This document shows positions 1 through 37,640 of a stretch of DNA of 38,508 nucleotides, in pieces (position 1 is the stretch's first letter; the number at the start of each line of letters is the position of its first letter). Source of the stretch: a virus. The notes beneath the pieces are model-generated. The model saw only the letters and a list, made by a program, of their open reading frames with translations, made no database searches and was not told where the DNA came from. Where the stretch lies: positions 1-38,508 of IMG/VR virus record IMGVR_UViG_3300042914_002812; one strand, 5' to 3'. The position numbers and the translations under genes were made by a program.

Positions 1-239
1 GTGGGCTCGCACTGAAGCACGGGCTACAGGTCGCCTTCGGCACGATCGACAGCGACTATCGAGGCGAGGTGGGCGTGATCGTCTACAACGTCGGCGACCG
101 CATCACGCTTCGGCCCGGCGACCGCATCGCGCAGATGGTGTTCGCTCGCGTGCCTCGCGTGCGGCTGCTCGAGGTGGCAGAGCTCACGAGCACCACCAAC
201 CGCGGCGTCGGAGGCTTTGGCTCCACGGGGCAGTCATGA
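1..239 (+). CDS. dut: dUTPase (dUTP pyrophosphatase), C-terminal part
   Basis: The first full codon is at base 3 and the stop is at 237-239; the 5' part lies outside the window. The enzyme hydrolyses dUTP to dUMP and pyrophosphate, keeping uracil out of DNA and feeding thymidylate synthesis. The visible 78 residues hold trimeric-dUTPase motif 3 ([17 protein letters not shown], including the Asp and Tyr that contact deoxyribose), motif 4 (RIAQMVFA) and the flexible glycine-rich motif 5 ([10 protein letters not shown]) that closes over the triphosphate. The stop overlaps the next start in ATGA, so the two genes are probably translationally coupled. thyX, which uses the product dUMP, lies two genes downstream. 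Identification is firm. Confidence 0.95.
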
Positions 240-451
240 CGCACAGCGCATGTCGTTGCCACGCATGCGAATACCACGCTCGCAAGTCGCACGACGATGA
301 GATGGCCCGCGAGCGGCAGTGCAAGCACGAGCGCATCGTCGAGGCATTGCAGCGCGTGCGTCAGCTCGACGCCGACCTCACAGCCGCGCGCGACGACAAC
401 AAGCGGCTCGTGGCCGAGCTGCGCGAGCTGCGCGAAAGGCTGTCGCGATGA
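236..451 (+). CDS. Small Cys/His-rich coiled-coil protein, unknown function
   Basis: A 71-residue protein sits between dut and thyX and overlaps both by ATGA (236-239 and 448-451), so it is part of the same operon. The N-terminus has a Cys-x-Cys-His-x-x-Cys cluster (residues 6-10) followed by a His and another Cys near residue 29, which could bind a metal. The C-terminal half, from about residue 33, is strongly charged and heptad-like ([20 protein letters not shown]), as in a short coiled coil. I do not recognise a family. Its position suggests a role tied to nucleotide metabolism, but this is only context. Confidence 0.75.
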
Positions 452-1263
452 GTTACGCCGCACGCATTCTCGCCGACAGCCTCGCGCCGAGTGGCGTGCG
501 GCTCACGACGTTCGAGGTCACGTTCCCGCGCTTCATCCTGGCCGAGTGGAACACGCACCGCATGCTCTCGCGCAACGCTGCGAGCTCGCGCGCGATCCCC
601 GTGCGCAAGCTGCTCGAGCAGGTCGAGACCGAGCCATTCGTGCCCGAGTACTGGGGAGCCAACAGGCCAGGCATGCAGGCCACCGAGGAGCTACCCGAGC
701 GCGACGCAGCAGACGCCCGCGCCACGTGGCTACAGGCCCGCGACGCAGCGTGCGACCACGCGCGCGTGCTCATGAGCCTGGGCGCGCACAAGCAGCTCGC
801 CAACAGGCTGCTCGAGCCGTTCACGTGGTGCACCGTCATCGTGTCGTCGACCACGTGGGACAACCTCTTCGCGCTGCGATGCCACGCCGACGCGCAGCCA
901 GAGTTCCGGCGCATCGCCTGCATGATGCGCGACGAGCTAGGCATCTCGACGCCACGAGCGCTCGCCATCGGCGACTGGCACTTGCCGCTCGCGCCAGACG
1001 TCGACGAGCTGCAGGCCGAGGGCTACACCATCGACGAGCGCGCGCGCATCAGCGCCGCCAGGTGCGCTCGCGTGAGCTACCTCACCCACGACGGAAAGCG
1101 CGTGCCTGCCACCGACCTAGAGCTCGCACGCAGGCTTCTCGAGGCTGGCCACATGAGCCCGTTCGAGCACGTCGCGCAGCCCAGCAGCCAAGAGCACACG
1201 CGCAGCGGCAACTTCCACGGCTGGTACCAGTACCGAAAGCGCCTGGAAAACCGCGCTCTGTAA
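448..1263 (+). CDS. thyX: Flavin-dependent thymidylate synthase (phage-type ThyX)
   Basis: A 271-residue protein starts at the ATG overlapping the previous stop. ThyX methylates dUMP to dTMP using methylenetetrahydrofolate, FAD and NADPH. Visible motifs are HRMLSRNAASSR at residues 37-48, the variant ThyX signature (canonical RHRxxSxNxxSxR), KQLANRLLEPF at 115-125, CARVSYL at 206-212 and HMSPFEH at 235-241. The last two resemble the ARVSF and HxTPFEH elements that come before the signature in classical bacterial ThyX, so the motif order is rearranged here. I know the same arrangement from other phage proteins annotated as ThyX. With dut upstream it gives a dUTP to dTMP route. A trailing segment (GNFHGWYQYRK) is also typical of the phage family. 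Confidence 0.9.
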   Translation: MSYAARILADSLAPSGVRLTTFEVTFPRFILAEWNTHRMLSRNAASSRAIPVRKLLEQVETEPFVPEYWGANRPGMQATEELPERDAADARATWLQARDAACDHARVLMSLGAHKQLANRLLEPFTWCTVIVSSTTWDNLFALRCHADAQPEFRRIACMMRDELGISTPRALAIGDWHLPLAPDVDELQAEGYTIDERARISAARCARVSYLTHDGKRVPATDLELARRLLEAGHMSPFEHVAQPSSQEHTRSGNFHGWYQYRKRLENRAL

Positions 1264-1291
1264 CAATCGACACCCGGCGTGTAAAAAAGAC

Positions 1292-1319
1292 TTGCGCGCT
1301 CGGCTGGCTGCGCTATTGT
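1292..1319 (+). promoter_or_regulatory. sigma70-like promoter P1
   Basis: A -35 box TTGCGC (1292-1297), a 16-base spacer and a -10 box TATTGT (1314-1319) lie just after thyX. The 21 bases from 1309 to 1329 are identical to those at 3736-3756 in promoter P5. Transcription would start near 1326, placing leader L1 at the very 5' end of the RNA. Confidence 0.7.
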
Positions 1320-1326
1320 CTCTCTT

Positions 1327-1349
1327 GTCGACACCCCGAGCGGGACGAC
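1327..1349 (+). promoter_or_regulatory. Structured leader L1 (repeat RNA motif)
   Basis: GTCG (1327-1330) pairs with CGAC (1346-1349). Between them are an ACA / A internal loop (1331-1333 and 1345) and a CCC/GGG inner stem closed by about four bases. The Shine-Dalgarno AAGGAG follows and the ATG is at 1368. This is one of six copies whose outer stems differ but still pair. Confidence 0.75.
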
Positions 1350-1367
1350 ACAACAAGGAGAGACATC

Positions 1368-1499
1368 ATGAAGCGCGGCGATAAGATTGTGGTCTGCGGC
1401 GTCAGCGGTCGATATGTGGGCACCAGGGCCGGAGTGCAGTGGATCTGCTACGATGGCCAAGACTACGAGGCAATGTGCGCTGCGTTTGACGCGCGCTAG
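1368..1499 (+). CDS. Small phage protein of 43 residues, unknown
   Basis: The start is supported by AAGGAG seven bases upstream and by its own promoter and leader. The product is 43 residues, begins MKRGDKIVVCGVSGRYVG and ends CAAFDAR, with three cysteines and a predicted short beta-rich fold (my reading of the alternating hydrophobics). No family is recognised. It is likely a small early protein, possibly a host-takeover factor like many phage proteins of this size; that role is a guess. The next gene has the leader motif but no promoter, so the two probably share a transcript. Confidence 0.7.
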   Translation: MKRGDKIVVCGVSGRYVGTRAGVQWICYDGQDYEAMCAAFDAR

Positions 1500-1506
1500 G
1501 CCGAAA

Positions 1507-1537
1507 CCCCGCAAGGGGTCGCACCGTCAAGCGGTGC
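1507..1537 (+). other. Two tandem intercistronic hairpins
   Basis: CCCC-GCAA-GGGG (1507-1518, a GNRA-type loop) is followed after two bases by GCACCG-TCAAG-CGGTGC (1521-1537). Neither has a T-run, so they are not classic terminators. They lie between the 43-residue gene and leader L2 and could be RNA-stability or processing elements, or weak attenuators. Confidence 0.6.
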
Positions 1538-1550
1538 CTGACGAGGCCAA

Positions 1551-1572
1551 CCGACACCCCACTGCGGGACGG
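1551..1572 (+). promoter_or_regulatory. Structured leader L2 (repeat RNA motif)
   Basis: CCG (1551-1553) pairs with CGG (1570-1572) around the conserved ACA / A internal loop and the CCC/GGG inner stem. AAGGAGA follows at about 1578, and the GTG start is at 1590. This copy has no promoter of its own, so the motif travels with the ribosome-binding site rather than with transcription start. Confidence 0.7.
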
Positions 1573-1589
1573 CAACAAGGAGAAAACCA

Positions 1590-1772
1590 GTGACCACGCG
1601 ACAGAACTACATCGATTTCTGCCAAGAACATGGAACCGATCCGGTGGAGCACGAAAACCAAGTGCTGTCGATCGGCAGCGAATACTTGCCCGCATATGCG
1701 CGCCGTGTCCGTGACGGCAAGAAAGCCACCGCCGCCTACTGGCGTTGGCTGACAGAACAGCTCCTTGCTTGA
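1590..1772 (+). CDS. Small phage protein of 60 residues, unknown
   Basis: The GTG start at 1590 is chosen because AAGGAGA lies about seven bases upstream. The product is 60 residues (begins MTTRQNYIDFCQEHG), amphipathic and probably helical, rich in Tyr, Trp and charged residues, with a basic segment YARRVRDGKKATAAYWRW. No family is recognised. The stop TGA (1770-1772) lies inside the -35 box of the next promoter. Confidence 0.7.
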   Translation: MTTRQNYIDFCQEHGTDPVEHENQVLSIGSEYLPAYARRVRDGKKATAAYWRWLTEQLLA

Positions 1773-1797
1773 CACGATTCCTCGCGAGCGATAAGTC
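1769..1797 (+). promoter_or_regulatory. sigma70-like promoter P3 with inverted repeat
   Basis: A consensus -35 TTGACA (1769-1774) contains the stop codon of the gene before it. The -10 is less clear: GATAAG (1790-1795) or TAAGTC (1792-1797). The 27 bases 1767-1793 match 2400-2426 at all but one position and include an inverted repeat TCGC-GA-GCGA (1782-1791) that could be an operator. Confidence 0.6.
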
Positions 1798-1804
1798 ACG
1801 ACCA

Positions 1805-1826
1805 CGGACACCCCACAGCGGGACCG
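1805..1826 (+). promoter_or_regulatory. Structured leader L3 (repeat RNA motif)
   Basis: CGG (1805-1807) pairs with CCG (1824-1826), the reverse polarity of the pairs in L2, around ACA / A and the CCCC...GGG inner stem. The Shine-Dalgarno AGGAG follows almost at once (1829-1833). Confidence 0.72.
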
Positions 1827-1836
1827 ACAGGAGACC

Positions 1837-2028
1837 ATGACCATGATCATCAGCGTCCAAGCAAATGCCCTGCGAGTCGGCGACAAGCTCGTCGCCATCG
1901 AGTACGTGTATAACGAGAAGATCACCAAGCTCACCACGCTGCCCAACGGCAGCGTCGAGATCACCATGGGCCGCGGGCGTCGCGTGCGCACCGTCGCCCC
2001 CACCACCGAGTGCGAGGTGTCGCGATGA
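1837..2028 (+). CDS. Small beta-rich phage protein, unknown
   Basis: A 63-residue product. Two starts are possible: ATG 1837 (three bases from the Shine-Dalgarno) and ATG 1843 (nine bases, better spacing), which would remove Met-Thr. The sequence (ALRVGDKLVAIEYVYNEKITKL, then a hydrophilic tail with repeated Arg) has the look of small SH3-like beta proteins common in phage early regions. This is resemblance, not a family assignment. The stop overlaps the next ATG (ATGA, 2025-2028), so the pair should be translationally coupled. Confidence 0.7.
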   Translation: MTMIISVQANALRVGDKLVAIEYVYNEKITKLTTLPNGSVEITMGRGRRVRTVAPTTECEVSR

Positions 2029-2405
2029 GCGCCGGCGCACTGCAACCGAGCGACCAGCTGTGGGCCGAGATGCGTCGCGCCGGTCAGCTGTTCTTCAGCG
2101 TCGGCTACCCATACCACAGCGCTCACCTCGCGCAGCCCGAGCGCGCGGGTTTCATGCTGTGGCGCAACGAGTGGGGCCAGGTGCTCATGAGCATCACCGG
2201 GCCCTGCAAGGGCAAGCGGCAGTGGCAAAAGACGGTGGTCGAGGGCTGGCGTCAGGCCCTCGAGGTCATCCCCGCCGACCTGTTCGCCTGGACCCCACTC
2301 TTGCGCGACTTTGGCGACTACGGCACCACCTATGCGCTCCACAAGCTCGGGCGCATCAGCGCGTGCGACACGCGAGTGGCCATCGCGGAGATGACGCGGG
2401 CTTGA
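2025..2405 (+). CDS. Hypothetical phage protein, 126 residues
   Basis: It starts at the ATG overlapping the previous stop and has no promoter or leader of its own. It begins MSAGALQPSDQLWAEMRRAG, is rich in Trp and Tyr, and carries a basic stretch GPCKGKRQWQKTV around residues 60-75. No signal peptide or membrane segment is visible. The family is not recognised. The stop TGA (2403-2405) is embedded in the -35 TTGACA of the next promoter, the second case of this arrangement. Confidence 0.75.
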   Translation: MSAGALQPSDQLWAEMRRAGQLFFSVGYPYHSAHLAQPERAGFMLWRNEWGQVLMSITGPCKGKRQWQKTVVEGWRQALEVIPADLFAWTPLLRDFGDYGTTYALHKLGRISACDTRVAIAEMTRA

Positions 2406-2430
2406 CACGATTCATCGCGAGCGATACAAC
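2402..2430 (+). promoter_or_regulatory. sigma70-like promoter P4 with inverted repeat
   Basis: A -35 TTGACA (2402-2407), a 17-base spacer and a -10 TACAAC (2425-2430). It is nearly identical to P3 across 27 bases. The inverted repeat ATCGC-GA-GCGAT (2414-2425) runs up to the -10, a plausible repressor site. Confidence 0.65.
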
Positions 2431-2441
2431 ACGATTGCCAC

Positions 2442-2464
2442 GCCGACACCCCACGAGGGACGGC
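2442..2464 (+). promoter_or_regulatory. Structured leader L4 (repeat RNA motif)
   Basis: GCCG (2442-2445) pairs with CGGC (2461-2464), enclosing ACA / A and CCCC-ACGA-GGG. ACAACGGAGA follows and the ATG is at 2480. Confidence 0.75.
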
Positions 2465-2479
2465 AACAACGGAGACACC

Positions 2480-3103
2480 ATGATCATCAACTGGTACCAA
2501 ACAGGACTCAGCAAAAAAGCATGGGAGGGGAGCCCCAACGACGTGGCCTTCGCGGGCCATGTCGACGCCGACCCGCAGCTTGTGTTCTGGCCCACGTGGC
2601 CAGAGCGCATTCGCGAGCTGGGCGCGGTGCGCATCATCGACTGCGAGCGCATGCACGCAATCGCCCGCAACTGGACGGCAGTGGCGCAACCCTCAGTCCG
2701 ACCGATGTCGGACGACCAGTGCAGCCGCTACCACTTCGACGGATGGGCGCTGTCTCGCCTGATCGCGTCCGAGCTCTGCGCCATCGAGGCCATCGAGAGG
2801 CGCGATGGCGAAGAGGCAGAGCTGCTCATCGAGGCGGCTCAAGCCTCGTCCATGACCATCGAGCCCAACTCATGGGCTTACCAGTCGGCGCACACGGCGA
2901 TGGCATGGCAGTACGATGGGCCTCACGAATGCGTGAAGCTCATGCTGGCGCGCCGCGGCTACAGGGTGTGCTCGGCCAGCGAGCACTCGGTCGAATACCC
3001 CGACAGGCGAGGCCAGACTTGGCTCGAGTCACGCCAGCCGCCACGAACGGACTGGCTCGCGGAGGCCAAGTCGTTTTGGTCGGCGCGGCGAGGTGCGCTG
3101 TGA
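2480..3103 (+). CDS. Hypothetical phage protein, 207 residues
   Basis: The ATG follows CGGAG by five bases and directly follows promoter P4 and leader L4. The protein starts MIINWYQTGLSKKAWEG and is mixed alpha/beta in appearance, with an acidic helical middle (AIEAIERRDGEEAELLIEAA) and several Trp residues. It has no membrane segment and no motif I can name. The stop overlaps the next GTG (GTGA, 3100-3103), giving a three-gene coupled unit to 3656. Confidence 0.8.
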   Translation: MIINWYQTGLSKKAWEGSPNDVAFAGHVDADPQLVFWPTWPERIRELGAVRIIDCERMHAIARNWTAVAQPSVRPMSDDQCSRYHFDGWALSRLIASELCAIEAIERRDGEEAELLIEAAQASSMTIEPNSWAYQSAHTAMAWQYDGPHECVKLMLARRGYRVCSASEHSVEYPDRRGQTWLESRQPPRTDWLAEAKSFWSARRGAL

Positions 3104-3384
3104 CCATCTCACGCAAAGCACTCGCATCCATCCGAGCAGCGCTGCGCCAGATCGGCGCTGCCATCCGAGACGAGGTGCAGCGGGAGCGCTCCACTCTCAT
3201 CGGCGCCGAGTACGTGCGTGGCGGCTGCGATGGCGTATGGCGCGTCGCGCTCGACACTGGCAACACCGTGCAGCTGAGGTGCGGCGAGCGCTACGCGTTC
3301 GTGGCGCGCTCCGAGCTCGACGGCCCGCTGTGGACTCGCCTCGACCGCGTCTACGGCACCACGCCCACGCAGGGAGACGCGTGA
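3100..3384 (+). CDS. Hypothetical phage protein, 94 residues
   Basis: The GTG start overlaps the previous stop by GTGA, an arrangement used repeatedly in this genome. The N-terminal 30 residues form a likely helix (RKALASIRAALRQIGAAIRDEV). The rest looks beta-rich, with a G-x-W-R-V-A-L-D-T-G-N segment resembling a short hairpin. No family is recognised. Confidence 0.72.
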   Translation: MTISRKALASIRAALRQIGAAIRDEVQRERSTLIGAEYVRGGCDGVWRVALDTGNTVQLRCGERYAFVARSELDGPLWTRLDRVYGTTPTQGDA

Positions 3385-3656
3385 CCACCGACTTCGACGT
3401 GCGGCTGCTCGAGCTGGTCGAGCAGCTGCGCGAGGGAGAAACCACCATGCGACGAGAGTACAACCACAGCCCGCTCGGCCTGCTACCGAGCACGGGCAAG
3501 CAAACGATCAACATCCGCTACAGCCTACCCGTGGAGCTCGTAAACTGGGTGCGCTCGGAGTCGCAGGCGCTAGGCATCAGCGCGAGCGAGTTCGTCGAGG
3601 CCCAGCTCGACACCGCGCGCGACAACTGGGACGACATCCACAGCGACGACGACTAG
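3381..3656 (+). CDS. Ribbon-helix-helix-like small DNA-binding protein
   Basis: 91 residues from GTG 3381 (GTGA overlap), or 69 residues from ATG 3447, which has AGGGAGA upstream. Residues about 42-78 (INIRYSLPVELVNWVRSESQ followed by LGISASEFVEAQL) match the pattern of ribbon-helix-helix/CopG-type proteins: a beta strand of alternating residues, then two helices separated by a short turn (GISAS). Such proteins dimerise and bind operators through the strand, so it could regulate promoters such as P3 and P4 nearby; that link is inference. The tail is acidic (SDDD). It is the last gene before a strong terminator. Confidence 0.65.
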   Translation: MTTDFDVRLLELVEQLREGETTMRREYNHSPLGLLPSTGKQTINIRYSLPVELVNWVRSESQALGISASEFVEAQLDTARDNWDDIHSDDD

Positions 3657-3677
3657 TCAAGCGCAAAGCGACGTCGC

Positions 3678-3716
3678 AAAAAAAACGCACTCACTTGCCA
3701 TGGGTGCGTTTTTTTT
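3678..3716. terminator. Bidirectional rho-independent terminator
   Basis: Eight A (3678-3685), stem CGCACTC (3686-3692) pairing with GGGTGCG (3702-3708) with one G-T pair, then eight T (3709-3716). The A and T runs make it work from both strands. It ends the unit 2480-3656 and directly abuts promoter P5. Confidence 0.9.
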
Positions 3717-3718
3717 AC

Positions 3719-3746
3719 TTGCGCATCCCAGCCGATGCGCTATTGT
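3719..3746 (+). promoter_or_regulatory. sigma70-like promoter P5
   Basis: A -35 TTGCGC (3719-3724), a 16-base spacer and a -10 TATTGT (3741-3746). It has the same boxes and spacing as P1, including a 21-base identity covering the -10 and start region (3736-3756). Confidence 0.72.
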
Positions 3747-3760
3747 CTCTCTTGTCAACA

Positions 3761-3783
3761 GCGGACACCCCCAGCGGGACCGC
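3761..3783 (+). promoter_or_regulatory. Structured leader L5 (repeat RNA motif)
   Basis: GCGG (3761-3764) pairs with CCGC (3780-3783) around ACA / A and the inner stem CCC...GGG with loop AGC. AAGGAG follows and the ATG is at 3805. Confidence 0.77.
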
Positions 3784-3804
3784 GACAACCAAGGAGCCGA
3801 CACC

Positions 3805-4014
3805 ATGAAGAATGCATCCGCCATCGCCATCGCCCGCAAGATGCTCAAGATCGACATCGACGCCTGGAAGCGTGAGGGATTCCACGGCAAGATGAGCACC
3901 GACTGCGAGTGGGCCGATCGAACCATCTGCGAGCTCGTGGGCCGCAAGATGCGCGAGCAGAGCCTGAGCGACGTGCGTCGCGCATACGAGAGCATCATGC
4001 GCTCGATGGCTTGA
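3805..4014 (+). CDS. Small phage protein of 69 residues, unknown
   Basis: The ATG lies eight bases after AAGGAG. The product is helical and charged (starts MKNASAIAIARKMLKIDIDAW), with two cysteines (around residues 34 and 42). No family is recognised. The stop TGA (4012-4014) is again inside the next promoter's TTGACA. Confidence 0.75.
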   Translation: MKNASAIAIARKMLKIDIDAWKREGFHGKMSTDCEWADRTICELVGRKMREQSLSDVRRAYESIMRSMA

Positions 4015-4038
4015 CACGAGCAGCTACTCAGCTACTAT
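4011..4038 (+). promoter_or_regulatory. sigma70-like promoter P6
   Basis: A -35 TTGACA (4011-4016), a 16-base spacer and a -10 TACTAT (4033-4038). It shares GCTTGACACGA with P3 and P4 but not their inverted repeat, so it may escape the same regulator. Confidence 0.72.
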
Positions 4039-4046
4039 CTCACCAA

Positions 4047-4067
4047 CGGACACCCCCAGCGGGACCG
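4047..4067 (+). promoter_or_regulatory. Structured leader L6 (repeat RNA motif)
   Basis: CGG (4047-4049) pairs with CCG (4065-4067) around ACA / A and the CCC-GGG inner stem. Loop and inner stem are identical to L5, while the outer stem is one pair shorter. ACAACCAGGAGA follows and the ATG is at 4088. Confidence 0.75.
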
Positions 4068-4087
4068 CTACAACCAGGAGACCGACC

Positions 4088-4501
4088 ATGGACATCGACA
4101 AGCTGAGCATTCGCAACCACATTTACGTTGACGGCTACGCTTACGGTGTGCGCCCGCACATCACGGGCGTGACGCCCTGGGAGCAGCGCCTCGCGCCCAA
4201 CACTGGCAGCGCGTACCAGCCCGAGCCGCGCGACGCGGTGATGTCCACGGTCGTGACGATCGACAACCCCGTCACCGGCTACGGGGTCGACTACGAGGTG
4301 CTCGTGTGCGCCGACTACGAGCCCGCCCAGCGTGGCGGCTGGGATGATCCCTCATGGGAGGCCCACTGGCACTCGCCCGAGGCCTGGTACTACCGCGAGG
4401 GGCGCGGCTGGAAGCGCCTCGAGCTGACCGAGCGCGCGGAGGCGCAGCTCATCGCCGAGCTCGACCGCGAGGCCGAGTACCGCCGCAACTACCGCGACTG
4501 A
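4088..4501 (+). CDS. Hypothetical phage protein, 137 residues
   Basis: The last plus-strand gene. It starts seven bases after AGGAG behind promoter P6 and leader L6. The protein begins MDIDKLSIRNHIYVDGYAYG. The middle (residues about 85-115) is rich in Trp, Tyr and His, and the C-terminus is an acidic/basic helix (ERAEAQLIAELDREAEYRR). No recognised domain. It stops just before the convergent terminator. Confidence 0.78.
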   Translation: MDIDKLSIRNHIYVDGYAYGVRPHITGVTPWEQRLAPNTGSAYQPEPRDAVMSTVVTIDNPVTGYGVDYEVLVCADYEPAQRGGWDDPSWEAHWHSPEAWYYREGRGWKRLELTERAEAQLIAELDREAEYRRNYRD

Positions 4502-4511
4502 GCCCTCCCCC

Positions 4512-4557
4512 GCAAAAGCACGAAGCGCCCAGGTCATGCCTGGGCGTTGTCGTTTTG
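4512..4557. terminator. Bidirectional terminator between convergent units
   Basis: CGCCCAGG (4526-4533) pairs perfectly with CCTGGGCG (4539-4546) around a five-base loop. AAAA (4514-4517) and TTTT (4553-4556) flank it, so it can stop the left-arm transcript on one strand and the long late transcript on the other. Confidence 0.85.
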
Positions 4558-4590
4558 TGGGCAACGTGTGAGCTTAGCTTACAAGTTGGG

Positions 4591-4869
4591 TCAACTCCAT
4601 TTTTCGCGGTCGCTCCAGTAGGCCGCGCTCAGCTTGCCCTTGGCGATGTTCTTGGCGTGCCGAGCCTTGAACGACTTGCGCCGCGCCTTGGCTGCCTCGC
4701 TCTCCCCCTCTCGAGGTGGCGAGCCCTTGGTGCCCTGCTCGCCAAAGCGAATGAGCTTGATCACGTCGCCCTCTTTCGCGAGCACAGCGTGACTCTTGGT
4801 CGGGTGATTGGGCGTGCGCTTGGGCTTGTTGTAGCCCTCGAACCTCTCGCCTCGATACTCAAGAGCCAT
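4591..4869 (-). CDS. Conserved phage protein, DUF6321-like
   Basis: A 92-residue basic protein. The segments YNKPKRTPNHPTKSHAVLAK, VIKLIRFGEQG and SFKARHAKNIAKGKLSAAYW match a small family I recall from many unrelated phages (usually annotated DUF6321); its function is unknown. The C-terminal KARHAKNI...SAAYW part is the most conserved. It is the last gene of the late transcript, just before the convergent terminator. Confidence 0.8.
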   Translation of the reverse strand: MALEYRGERFEGYNKPKRTPNHPTKSHAVLAKEGDVIKLIRFGEQGTKGSPPREGESEAAKARRKSFKARHAKNIAKGKLSAAYWSDREKWS

Positions 4870-7758: not shown

Positions 7759-8288
7759 CTGTCCCAGCGTGCGGCGGCGCCGCGGAGCCCTGTAGCGCAT
7801 GTCCCTCGCATGTACGCGCTGAGCCTGTCGCGCGTCTCTAGTTTGCGGCACATCGAAAGAGAGCCCACGGCCAGCGCCAACGCCTTGCGCGCTGCGAGCT
7901 TGCGATCGGCCTGGAGCATGGCACCCGTTACGCGCGAGCCATCGGCCTTGGTGTACGCCTTGAGCTGCCACACGCTGTAGCTGGTGCCACCATCGCAGCG
8001 CGACCACCACCCACCGCCTGGCTTGCCTCGGTAGCAGGGCCCCACGTCCACATCCTGTGAGAGCGCGCTCTCCTCGAGCGCCAGCGCAAGCAGCAGCGCG
8101 GCTTCGCTCTTGTCGCTGAGCCCAGTGCCGCTCGCGTCAAGTGCCGCCGCTTCGATCGCCTCCGCGATGGCTTGATACCTCACGCGAGCCTCTGCCTCGG
8201 TCTCGCTCCAGCCAGGGAACTTTCGCGCTCCAGACGGTGGCGCAAACGCCATCATCGCAGCCACGAGCCACGTCACCAGCGCGCTCAC
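7719..8288 (-). CDS. Lysozyme-like protein with N-terminal signal-like segment
   Basis: GTG 8288 overlaps the previous stop (GTGA), giving 189 residues. Residues 1-18 (SALVTWLVAAMMAFAPP) form a hydrophobic signal peptide or signal-anchor. The remainder looks like the lysozyme superfamily: LALALEESALS (67-77, candidate catalytic Glu72 or Glu73), a conserved-looking SYSVWQL (103-109) and RLSAYMRGTC (155-164). Four cysteines (residues 85, 98, 147 and 164) would suit a protein exported through the inner membrane. It could be a second muralytic enzyme acting with the SLT protein. The family assignment is by pattern only. Confidence 0.6.
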   Translation of the reverse strand: MSALVTWLVAAMMAFAPPSGARKFPGWSETEAEARVRYQAIAEAIEAAALDASGTGLSDKSEAALLLALALEESALSQDVDVGPCYRGKPGGGWWSRCDGGTSYSVWQLKAYTKADGSRVTGAMLQADRKLAARKALALAVGSLSMCRKLETRDRLSAYMRGTCATGLRGAAARWDRWHTVEAWSPKKP

Positions 8289-35929: not shown

Positions 35930-36498
35930 GCCATGGACCACTCGGCCTTGGCGCCGATGACCTCGGCAATCCCGGCCACCTGTCTGTACCGGAACACCGT
36001 GTCAACGTCGATGCCGAGCTTCTCGGCGATCTGCTCGTCGGTGAGGTCCTGCCCCGCGAGCCTTCGGATGAGGTCCGCGTCGAGGTCGACCTGGTGGACG
36101 CCGCGAGCCTTGTTGAACTGCCACGTCGCGGCGAGCCGCTTTGACATGCCGTGCGACAGTACCACGAGCGGGATGTAGTCGCAGTCGAGCCAGTCCGAGC
36201 CATGGATCATGCGTCTGTGCGCGCCGTCGATGACCACGAACCGCTGCTGTTCGTCGTCCCAGATCGTCACCACGGGGAAGCACACCCCATTGTCGAGGAT
36301 GCTCTGCTGGAGCAGAGCCATCTTGTCGGGCGACACGCTGTTCGGGTTGTACAGGTTCTCGAGGACAAGCTCGACGCGCACGAGCATCGTGTTCATGCAC
36401 GGCACTTCGACCCTGCCGTGCGTCCGGCTCGTGATGTAGACGGGCTGCATTGCCGCACGCGCCTCGTGGAACTGCTCGATCGTGTCAATGCTACGCAT
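35908..36498 (-). CDS. ParB/Srx-fold protein with HTH (IbrB-like)
   Basis: 196 residues from ATG 36498 (TGATG overlap with the PAPS-reductase gene). Residues 40-105 have the ParB N-terminal pattern: LENLYNPNSVSPDKMALLQQ, then VVIDGAHRR (88-96), the DG-x-HR motif found in ParB, sulfiredoxin-fold proteins and DndB-type proteins that bind a nucleotide. Residues 150-176 (DLTDEQIAEKLGIDVDTVFR) are a helix-turn-helix. It may bind DNA and hydrolyse or bind a nucleotide. Pairing with a PAPS-reductase protein matches E. coli IbrB-IbrA. Confidence 0.8.
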   Translation of the reverse strand: MRSIDTIEQFHEARAAMQPVYITSRTHGRVEVPCMNTMLVRVELVLENLYNPNSVSPDKMALLQQSILDNGVCFPVVTIWDDEQQRFVVIDGAHRRMIHGSDWLDCDYIPLVVLSHGMSKRLAATWQFNKARGVHQVDLDADLIRRLAGQDLTDEQIAEKLGIDVDTVFRYRQVAGIAEVIGAKAEWSMAWEMVED

Positions 36499-37640
36499 CA
36501 CAGGGTCTCCTCGTAGTAGGCGATGAGTTCGTCGCGAGGGTCGGGCTTGTTGTTGACGGCGAGGTTGTTTTCGTAGTCGTTGCAGACGAGCTGTCGGCAC
36601 TGCTGCCTGGCCACGTATTCGTTGTCCAGATGCCGCGCAAACCGATCGCGGAAGATGGCCTGCGCCTTCGGATCGGGGTGCGTCGCGAGCAGGTTGTCGC
36701 GGTAGGACCGCCACGACTTCCACTGCCGCGGGAGCTTGCGGCAAGCAAACAATTTGGCGCTCTTTGCGGTCTCCTGCGCGAGCGCGATCCCCTTGATCCG
36801 CTTCTGGAGGCGGGCGTAGGTCTTTGGCTCAAACTCAGGCAGGTCGGCGATCGACTTGAAAGAGCGCTCGTGGATGAGCGAGGACACGCGCATCTCGGTG
36901 AGCGGGTAGCCCTTTTTGTGCTGGAAGTCGTAGATCTTCGAGTACCGGAGCTTTTGCTCCCAGAGGTACTTCCAGACGTCGTGAAAGTTCCAGTCAAAGA
37001 TTGGGTAAAGGGACCAGTTCTCCTCCTTCCGCGTGCCCCAGAACACGCGCTGCCCACCGATCTGAATTGGGTTCTTGGCGACAGCGCGCCAGCGGTTCGG
37101 GCTCTCCCCGGCGGCACGTAGGCCCACGAGGAACGCCGTCCGCTCGAAGCACCGCGCGAAGGCGTCGATCGCGTCGTAGAAGCCAAAGCCCTTGGCCTTG
37201 TCGCGCACGGTCTCCTGCTCGGGCCTCCACGGGCGCGCCTTGATGGCGTCGTCGCGCTTTGACCGCATCCAGATCTTGTGCTGCCCCGGCTCCCAGCACA
37301 CGAGCTGCCCCTCCGTGAGCGAGGTCGCGTTCGTGAGGCGGAACGGCACCTGCGCCCACATCTTCTTCGTGGCCTCGGGGATGAGGTGCATCAGGTATTC
37401 GACCGTCTCGACGCTGCTCTGGTACATGACCTCCTCGTCAAGCAGGTGGATCCCGATGCGGATGCCGCGCCGGTGCGCCTCGACGAGCGCGAGGTGGGCG
37501 AGCACCTCGCTATCTTTGCCGCCCGAGATCGAGACGATGATGTCCGCGATGTCGCCTGCCTCCAGGCGGTCGAACACCCACGACACCCGGCGCCGAGCGG
37601 CCTCGAGGACCGTCTCACCCGTGTAGCGTTGCCGCAGCAT
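36498..37640 (-). CDS. PAPS-reductase family ATP-pyrophosphatase with DUF3440 (IbrA-like)
   Basis: 380 residues. PP-loop SISGGKDS (37-44) for ATP, LLDEEVMYQSSVETVEYL (66-83), LVGLRAAGES (171-180), then YPIFDWNFHDVWKYL (212-226): the order and motifs of the PAPS reductase/DndC superfamily. The rest, about 230-380, fits the DUF3440 extension of IbrA-type proteins. Members activate or transfer through adenylation; the substrate here is unknown. Two Cys pairs expected of Fe-S sulfotransferases are not obvious, so it is not a simple sulfate-assimilation enzyme. It overlaps the upstream gene by 26 bases and the ParB-like gene by one. Confidence 0.85.
   Translation of the reverse strand: MLRQRYTGETVLEAARRRVSWVFDRLEAGDIADIIVSISGGKDSEVLAHLALVEAHRRGIRIGIHLLDEEVMYQSSVETVEYLMHLIPEATKKMWAQVPFRLTNATSLTEGQLVCWEPGQHKIWMRSKRDDAIKARPWRPEQETVRDKAKGFGFYDAIDAFARCFERTAFLVGLRAAGESPNRWRAVAKNPIQIGGQRVFWGTRKEENWSLYPIFDWNFHDVWKYLWEQKLRYSKIYDFQHKKGYPLTEMRVSSLIHERSFKSIADLPEFEPKTYARLQKRIKGIALAQETAKSAKLFACRKLPRQWKSWRSYRDNLLATHPDPKAQAIFRDRFARHLDNEYVARQQCRQLVCNDYENNLAVNNKPDPRDELIAYYEETL

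Follow-up and report, generated by a model that had tools for sequence, protein, structure and literature searches.

Six hairpin leaders with a fixed internal loop and covarying outer stems precede short genes of a contractile-tailed phage

The window analysed here, i.e. the whole stretch of 38,508 bases, is a virus contig with 64% G+C. Its tail sheath, baseplate, terminase and portal genes identify the source as a contractile-tailed phage. The structural genes lie on the - strand, and a block of small genes occupies the + strand (236-4501) after a gene that we take from its sequence to be thyX. From gene size and place we infer that the small + strand genes are early. Six of them each stand behind a short hairpin leader (Table 1). 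The window also encodes a 91-aa protein (3381-3656), the C-terminal half of which resembles a ribbon-helix-helix regulator by eye, and a phosphoadenosine-phosphosulfate-reductase-like gene close to the terminase (36498-37640; phrog_2302, E 6e-70). Searches for a host were uninformative: among phage records the tail sheath protein had relatives at 24-26% only, and the best match of the terminase among bacterial and archaeal genomes was 34% identical over the protein.

Table 1. Leader hairpins, genes and predicted elements of the small-gene block (window positions)
Feature	Position	Strand	Description
Promoter of leader 1 (predicted; consensus match)	1292-1319	+	TTGCGC-16-TATTGT, 6 nt before hairpin; conserved in relatives
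Leader hairpin 1	1326-1350	+	TGTCG-ACA-CCC-CGAGC-GGG-A-CGACA
Gene 1	1368-1499	+	43 aa, behind leader 1
Candidate type II hammerhead	1499-1548	+	Separates gene 1 from leader 2; predicted to cleave after C1520
Leader hairpin 2	1551-1572	+	CCG-ACA-CCC-CACTGC-GGG-A-CGG; no promoter directly upstream
Gene 2	1590-1772	+	60 aa, GTG start, behind leader 2
Weak promoter of leader 3 (predicted; consensus match)	1769-1795	+	TTGACA-15-GATAAG, 9 nt before hairpin
Leader hairpin 3	1805-1826	+	CGG-ACA-CCC-CACAGC-GGG-A-CCG
Gene 3	1837-2028	+	63 aa, behind leader 3
Weak promoter of leader 4 (predicted)	2402-2428	+	TTGACA-15-GATACA, 13 nt before hairpin
Leader hairpin 4	2442-2464	+	GCCG-ACA-CCC-CACGA-GGG-A-CGGC
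Gene 4	2480-3103	+	207 aa, behind leader 4
Promoter of leader 5 (predicted)	3719-3746	+	TTGCGC-16-TATTGT, 14 nt before core, 5 nt before outer helix
Leader hairpin 5	3752-3788 (core 3761-3783)	+	Core GCGG..CCGC; extra outer helix UUGUC:GACAA across AACA bulge
Gene 5	3805-4014	+	69 aa, behind leader 5
Promoter of leader 6 (predicted)	4011-4038	+	TTGACA-16-TACTAT, 8 nt before hairpin
Leader hairpin 6	4047-4067	+	CGG-ACA-CCC-CCAGC-GGG-A-CCG
Gene 6	4088-4501	+	137 aa, behind leader 6
Terminator-like hairpin	4524-4548		After gene 6

The leaders share one architecture: a fixed internal loop, with ACA in the 5' arm and a single A in the 3' arm, separates an outer stem of 3-5 bp from a CCC/GGG inner stem, which is closed by a variable terminal loop of 5-6 bases. 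The motif GACACCCC-N(4-5)-GGGAC occurs in six exact copies in the window, all on the + strand, where 0.06 would be expected by chance. The looser pattern ACACCCC-N2-8-GGGA likewise has six matches, all on the + strand and all within 1331-4064; none of 100 shuffled sequences reached six, and the reversed pattern had no match in the window. A sequence-only reading of this DNA had listed six copies just before a Shine-Dalgarno (SD) sequence. Every copy and every outer pair that it named is present, and GGAG follows each hairpin at 3-9 nt across an ACAAC-like linker; the start codon lies a further 3-8 nt downstream in the window and 12 nt in one relative. Two details need amendment. The stem of copy 1 is longer than had been described (5 bp, 1326-1350), and copy 5 can add its UUGUC:GACAA helix. 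Of the proposed CCCC/GGG element, CCC:GGG is borne out as the inner stem; the fourth C lies outside the structure, since it is replaced by A in a divergent relative.

The element is also present in four close-relative contigs, i.e. G001 (58,478 bases, four copies), G002 (58,059 bases, five), G003 (46,175 bases, four) and G004 (32,082 bases, four), with terminases 99-100% identical to that of the window where matched (G001, G002 and G004). A divergent relative reached via a ThyX search (G056; 17,561 bases, ThyX 67% identical) has two copies. The window, G001, G002, G004 and G056 together yield 21 copies with 13 distinct sequences; G003 was left out of the count because it repeats G001 at these sites. 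In both G056 copies CCCAACACGGG replaces CCCC..GGG and pairing is kept; one stem is GCCG/CGGC and the other has a new sequence, CGGCG/CGCCG. The G056 copy with GCCG/CGGC (L232, 9293) precedes a homologue of gene 3 (49% identical), whereas the leader of the window ortholog has CGG/CCG, which reads as a compensated change at an orthologous site. The gene 5 leader similarly has GTCG/CGAC in G002 versus GCGG/CCGC in the window. Whole leader-gene units, either gene 1 with the hammerhead or gene 2, have been lost at about 8000-8340 of L135, 7850-8110 of L138 and 100-430 of L144, as if leader copies had recombined with each other.

Beyond these contigs no clear copy was recovered. In searches with a model of the element, true copies score at least 32.6 bits and the next match 19.5 bits. 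The exact pattern with an SD was found in 19 stretches of IMG/VR, with real copies in this clade only; the rest are one-offs with unrelated flanks and, by look, mostly inside coding sequence. Among 37 additional viral records linked by their terminases, model R1 gave one weak match (E 0.04); a near-DNA search with the first 20 kb found no match in 50,697 phage records, and protein searches with genes 4, 5 and 6 and a gene 3 alignment returned the same contigs only.

Variation that is informative about pairing is found in two adjacent outer pairs and in one or two outermost positions that are paired in some copies only. Column pair 3-24 is C-G, U-A or G-C and column pair 4-23 is C-G or G-C, with none broken in the 13 distinct copies. 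The G before ACA and the C after GGGA form an invariant outer pair; this pair and the three inner pairs are uninformative because they never vary. The covariation score is 0.263, compared with 0.083 +/- 0.026 in shuffles (0/500 as high) and at most 0.034 when slid, although relatedness can also raise such a score. The covariation claimed in the sequence-only reading is real, but it is more thinly supported than was stated, as it comes from two columns and four stem classes, mostly in paralogues. With just two covarying columns and many paralogous copies, the independent events are few (three to four), so this evidence is good but not of R-scape grade. The refuting case envisaged in that reading, in which the sequence is kept and outer pairing lost, does not occur in the copies available from the databases: all 21 keep both variable pairs, with four stem sequences. 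Its statement that ACA/A and CCC/GGG stay fixed is confirmed, and the invariance of the anchors is a stronger sign of constraint than the covariation: the 12 anchor bases (GACACCC and GGGAC) are 100% identical in 21 copies, amid identities of 29-32% at 5-45 nt upstream and 32% in coding sequence. That paired columns vary while pairing is kept supports the leader as a structured RNA element.

These data also bear on whether the leaders are simply recently copied promoter-leader cassettes, with a functionless hairpin, likeness due to common descent and pairing due to chance. Leaders 1 and 5 do have a common promoter sequence, relatives do differ by loss of leader-gene units, and exchange between copies could keep the cores alike. 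However, the flanks have diverged to about 30% identity around the invariant anchors, also at 67% ThyX identity, and the four distinct stem dinucleotides are all complementary to their partners (chance about 9e-5, for independent draws and uncorrected for column choice). We regard such cassettes as a quite improbable explanation.

The case for the hairpin is comparative, not thermodynamic, because the stability of the single hairpins is unremarkable given their composition: their folding energies in the window range from -5.4 to -8.8 kcal/mol, with z from -2.6 to +0.4. Hairpins with 3+3 bp reach only -5.4 kcal/mol, which is weak; the pairing probability is about 0.5 for one copy from a relative, and copy 6 and its counterpart take a different minimum-energy fold in some contexts. 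In the minimum-energy folds the SD is unpaired with the hairpin strands in all copies, bar weak alternatives in copy 6. The leader is therefore not a simple switch, as the hairpin does not stably hide the SD, and riboswitch-like SD sequestration was rejected. The leader itself as a ribozyme was also rejected, as it has neither a catalytic core nor CUGANGA.

Most leaders lie close behind a predicted promoter, a feature absent from the sequence-only reading, as is the hammerhead described below. Among the 19 copies with a recognisable one, the distance from the -10 hexamer to the hairpin start is 6-9 nt in 12 and 10-14 nt in the rest. The predicted promoters of leaders 3 and 4 match the consensus poorly in the -10 hexamer; for leader 4 the best-scoring alternative (TTGACA-17-TACAAC, 11 nt before the hairpin) gives a second possible -10 hexamer. 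In copy 5, where the core lies 14 nt after the -10, the extra helix starts nearer to it. Both G056 leaders follow near-consensus promoters (TTGACT-16-TATTAT and TTGACA-16-TAATAT), and two copies are promoterless, one in the window (copy 2) and one in G002 (at 8085). As predicted from consensus sequences, the mRNA 5' end probably coincides with the hairpin or lies near it in most copies, because the hairpin follows a -10-like hexamer closely in these. Directly before the leader 5 promoter, an A-rich/CGCAC...GTGCG/T-rich inverted repeat (3677-3718) is likely a two-way terminator.

A position immediately downstream of a promoter is also a common place for repressor operators, and the half-sites GACACCC and GGGAC are partly inverted, as might be expected if the element acted at the DNA level, with a repressor or RNA polymerase reading it as an operator or as initially transcribed sequence. 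We consider this improbable: the arms differ by a 3-versus-1 asymmetry, the spacer varies by one base, the outer positions vary freely provided that pairing holds, and in the window copy 2 lacks a promoter directly before it. A nut/put-like antitermination site, recognised either by an antiterminator or directly by RNA polymerase, would fit a hairpin at the transcript start with terminator-like hairpins downstream. However, most units are short, of only one to three genes, with a predicted promoter of their own, inspection by eye revealed no boxA-like companion, and the element lies against the SD instead of far from it, all of which makes antitermination very improbable.

Both promoterless leaders are preceded by the same 50-base element. 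In the window it reads GGCC-GAAA-CCCC(GCAA)GGGG-UC^GCACCG(UCAAG)CGGUGC-CUGACGA-GGCC and has the features of a type II hammerhead (CUGANGA, GAAA, U-H17 and three stems with stem II open). The full three-stem fold is its minimum-energy fold, and none of 60 random windows matched the core and three stems. The Rfam model RF02276 scores 22.6 bits, below its gathering score of 37 (E 0.0044 over the 67 bases searched). By its core and stems the element is a candidate type II hammerhead, with self-cleavage predicted. The G002 hammerhead (L138, 8024-8073) precedes the gene 3 leader because gene 2 is absent there, and its core C3 is replaced by A (AUGACGA), a change that should abolish cleavage. G001 and G004 lack both gene 1 and the hammerhead, and their leader 2 stands directly behind a predicted promoter. 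The association of ribozyme and leader, at this one locus, is suggestive.

How might the leaders act? The sequence-only reading offered three candidate roles: a 5'-end stabiliser, a protein-binding translational operator and a site for escape of early mRNAs from host shut-off. We propose that most of the short genes have their own sigma-70-type promoter, predicted to place the mRNA start only a few bases from the hairpin. The message would then open with a hairpin bearing the fixed ACA/A loop; the ACAAC-like linker and the SD would come next. The internal loop may be read by a protein of phage or host origin. Once bound, this protein could either (i) shield the 5' end from decay or (ii) lie against the upstream edge of the 30S subunit during initiation and set the translation of all six mRNAs together; its location at the upstream edge of the ribosome site is the reason why it could control initiation. 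Transcription starts at the leaders, formation of the hairpin and reading of its loop by a protein are all inferred from sequence. We give a probability of about one half to the reading that the leader is a cis-acting 5'-terminal RNA hairpin, read by a putative protein that sets the decay or translation of these mRNAs. Were the reader a phage protein, it would form a compact orthogonal RNA-protein pair with the leader.

The main competitor needs no dedicated protein: a plain 5'-end stabiliser, in which the hairpin would slow pyrophosphate removal and 5'-end-dependent RNase E-type decay. The predicted site at or near +1 in most copies, the longer outer helix of copy 5 and the candidate hammerhead, which on cleavage before copy 2 would leave another 5'-terminal hairpin (stem I), are all consistent with it. 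Many stems are, however, weak for this purpose (-5.4 to -5.7 kcal/mol), the invariant ACA/A loop and CCC/GGG would be needless for pure stabilisation, and copy 2 retains the element though it would lie away from the 5' end. A fixed internal loop in hairpins of modest stability points to protein recognition more than to pure stabilisation, which we hold to be unlikely but worth keeping in view. Within the protein-read hairpin model, given the weakness of the hairpins and the strict conservation of the loop, we lean slightly towards coordinated translational control rather than 5'-end protection.

A more ambitious and rather doubtful extension is a regulon in which one protein would read a 22-25-nt ACA/A tag at mRNA 5' ends, with hammerhead cleavage supplying the 5' end to a promoterless gene. 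If true, such a tag regulon would represent a new RNA family and a new logic of early phage expression.

Comparison with known systems agrees with the earlier remark that the leader is not a described family: Rfam 15 gave no match to the leader at gathering score across the window and 134 kb from relatives, and only one unrelated weak match in window positions 1-4700 at E up to 10. Coat-protein operators of RNA phages (MS2, PP7 type) are short hairpins with an unpaired purine in the stem that are read by a protein near a start codon. The leader shares the short hairpin, the unpaired purine in the stem and the place near a start codon, with a putative protein reader, but there is no sequence match, its internal loop is 3 by 1 where theirs is a single bulged A, and its terminal loop is not conserved.

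Type II hammerheads (RF02276) are already known in bacteria and phage regions (PMC3088659); the leader lacks CUGANGA, yet its GA[C/A]ACCCC strand resembles hammerhead stem III. As with the T4 RegA operators, many early phage mRNAs could be controlled near their starts by a single trans-acting protein, but the RegA sites are unstructured AU-rich stretches that overlap the AUG or lie against it (PMC3014915), in contrast to the GC-rich hairpins upstream of the SD.

Our search of the open-access literature on early-phage leaders found nothing closer than the SAS and ESAS of cluster K mycobacteriophages, which thus appear to be the nearest reported analogue. SAS is a 13-base sequence, GGGATAGGAGCCC, that includes the SD; ESAS are 17-bp imperfect inverted repeats with little support for RNA pairing and were judged likelier to be DNA sites (PMC3203893). 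The function of both is unknown, and a role in translation initiation was proposed (PMC3203893). Like them, the leader is a short repeat in one orientation upstream of many non-structural phage gene starts and is limited to a phage cluster. Unlike SAS, its conserved part is GACACCC/GGGAC and the SD lies outside it; unlike ESAS, its arms are about 8-12 nt long and changes compensate at the two variable pairs in 13/13 distinct copies. Compared with SAS/ESAS, the evidence for RNA pairing, the adjacent predicted starts and the very small motif open the question of a tag reader to pull-down and reporter assays.
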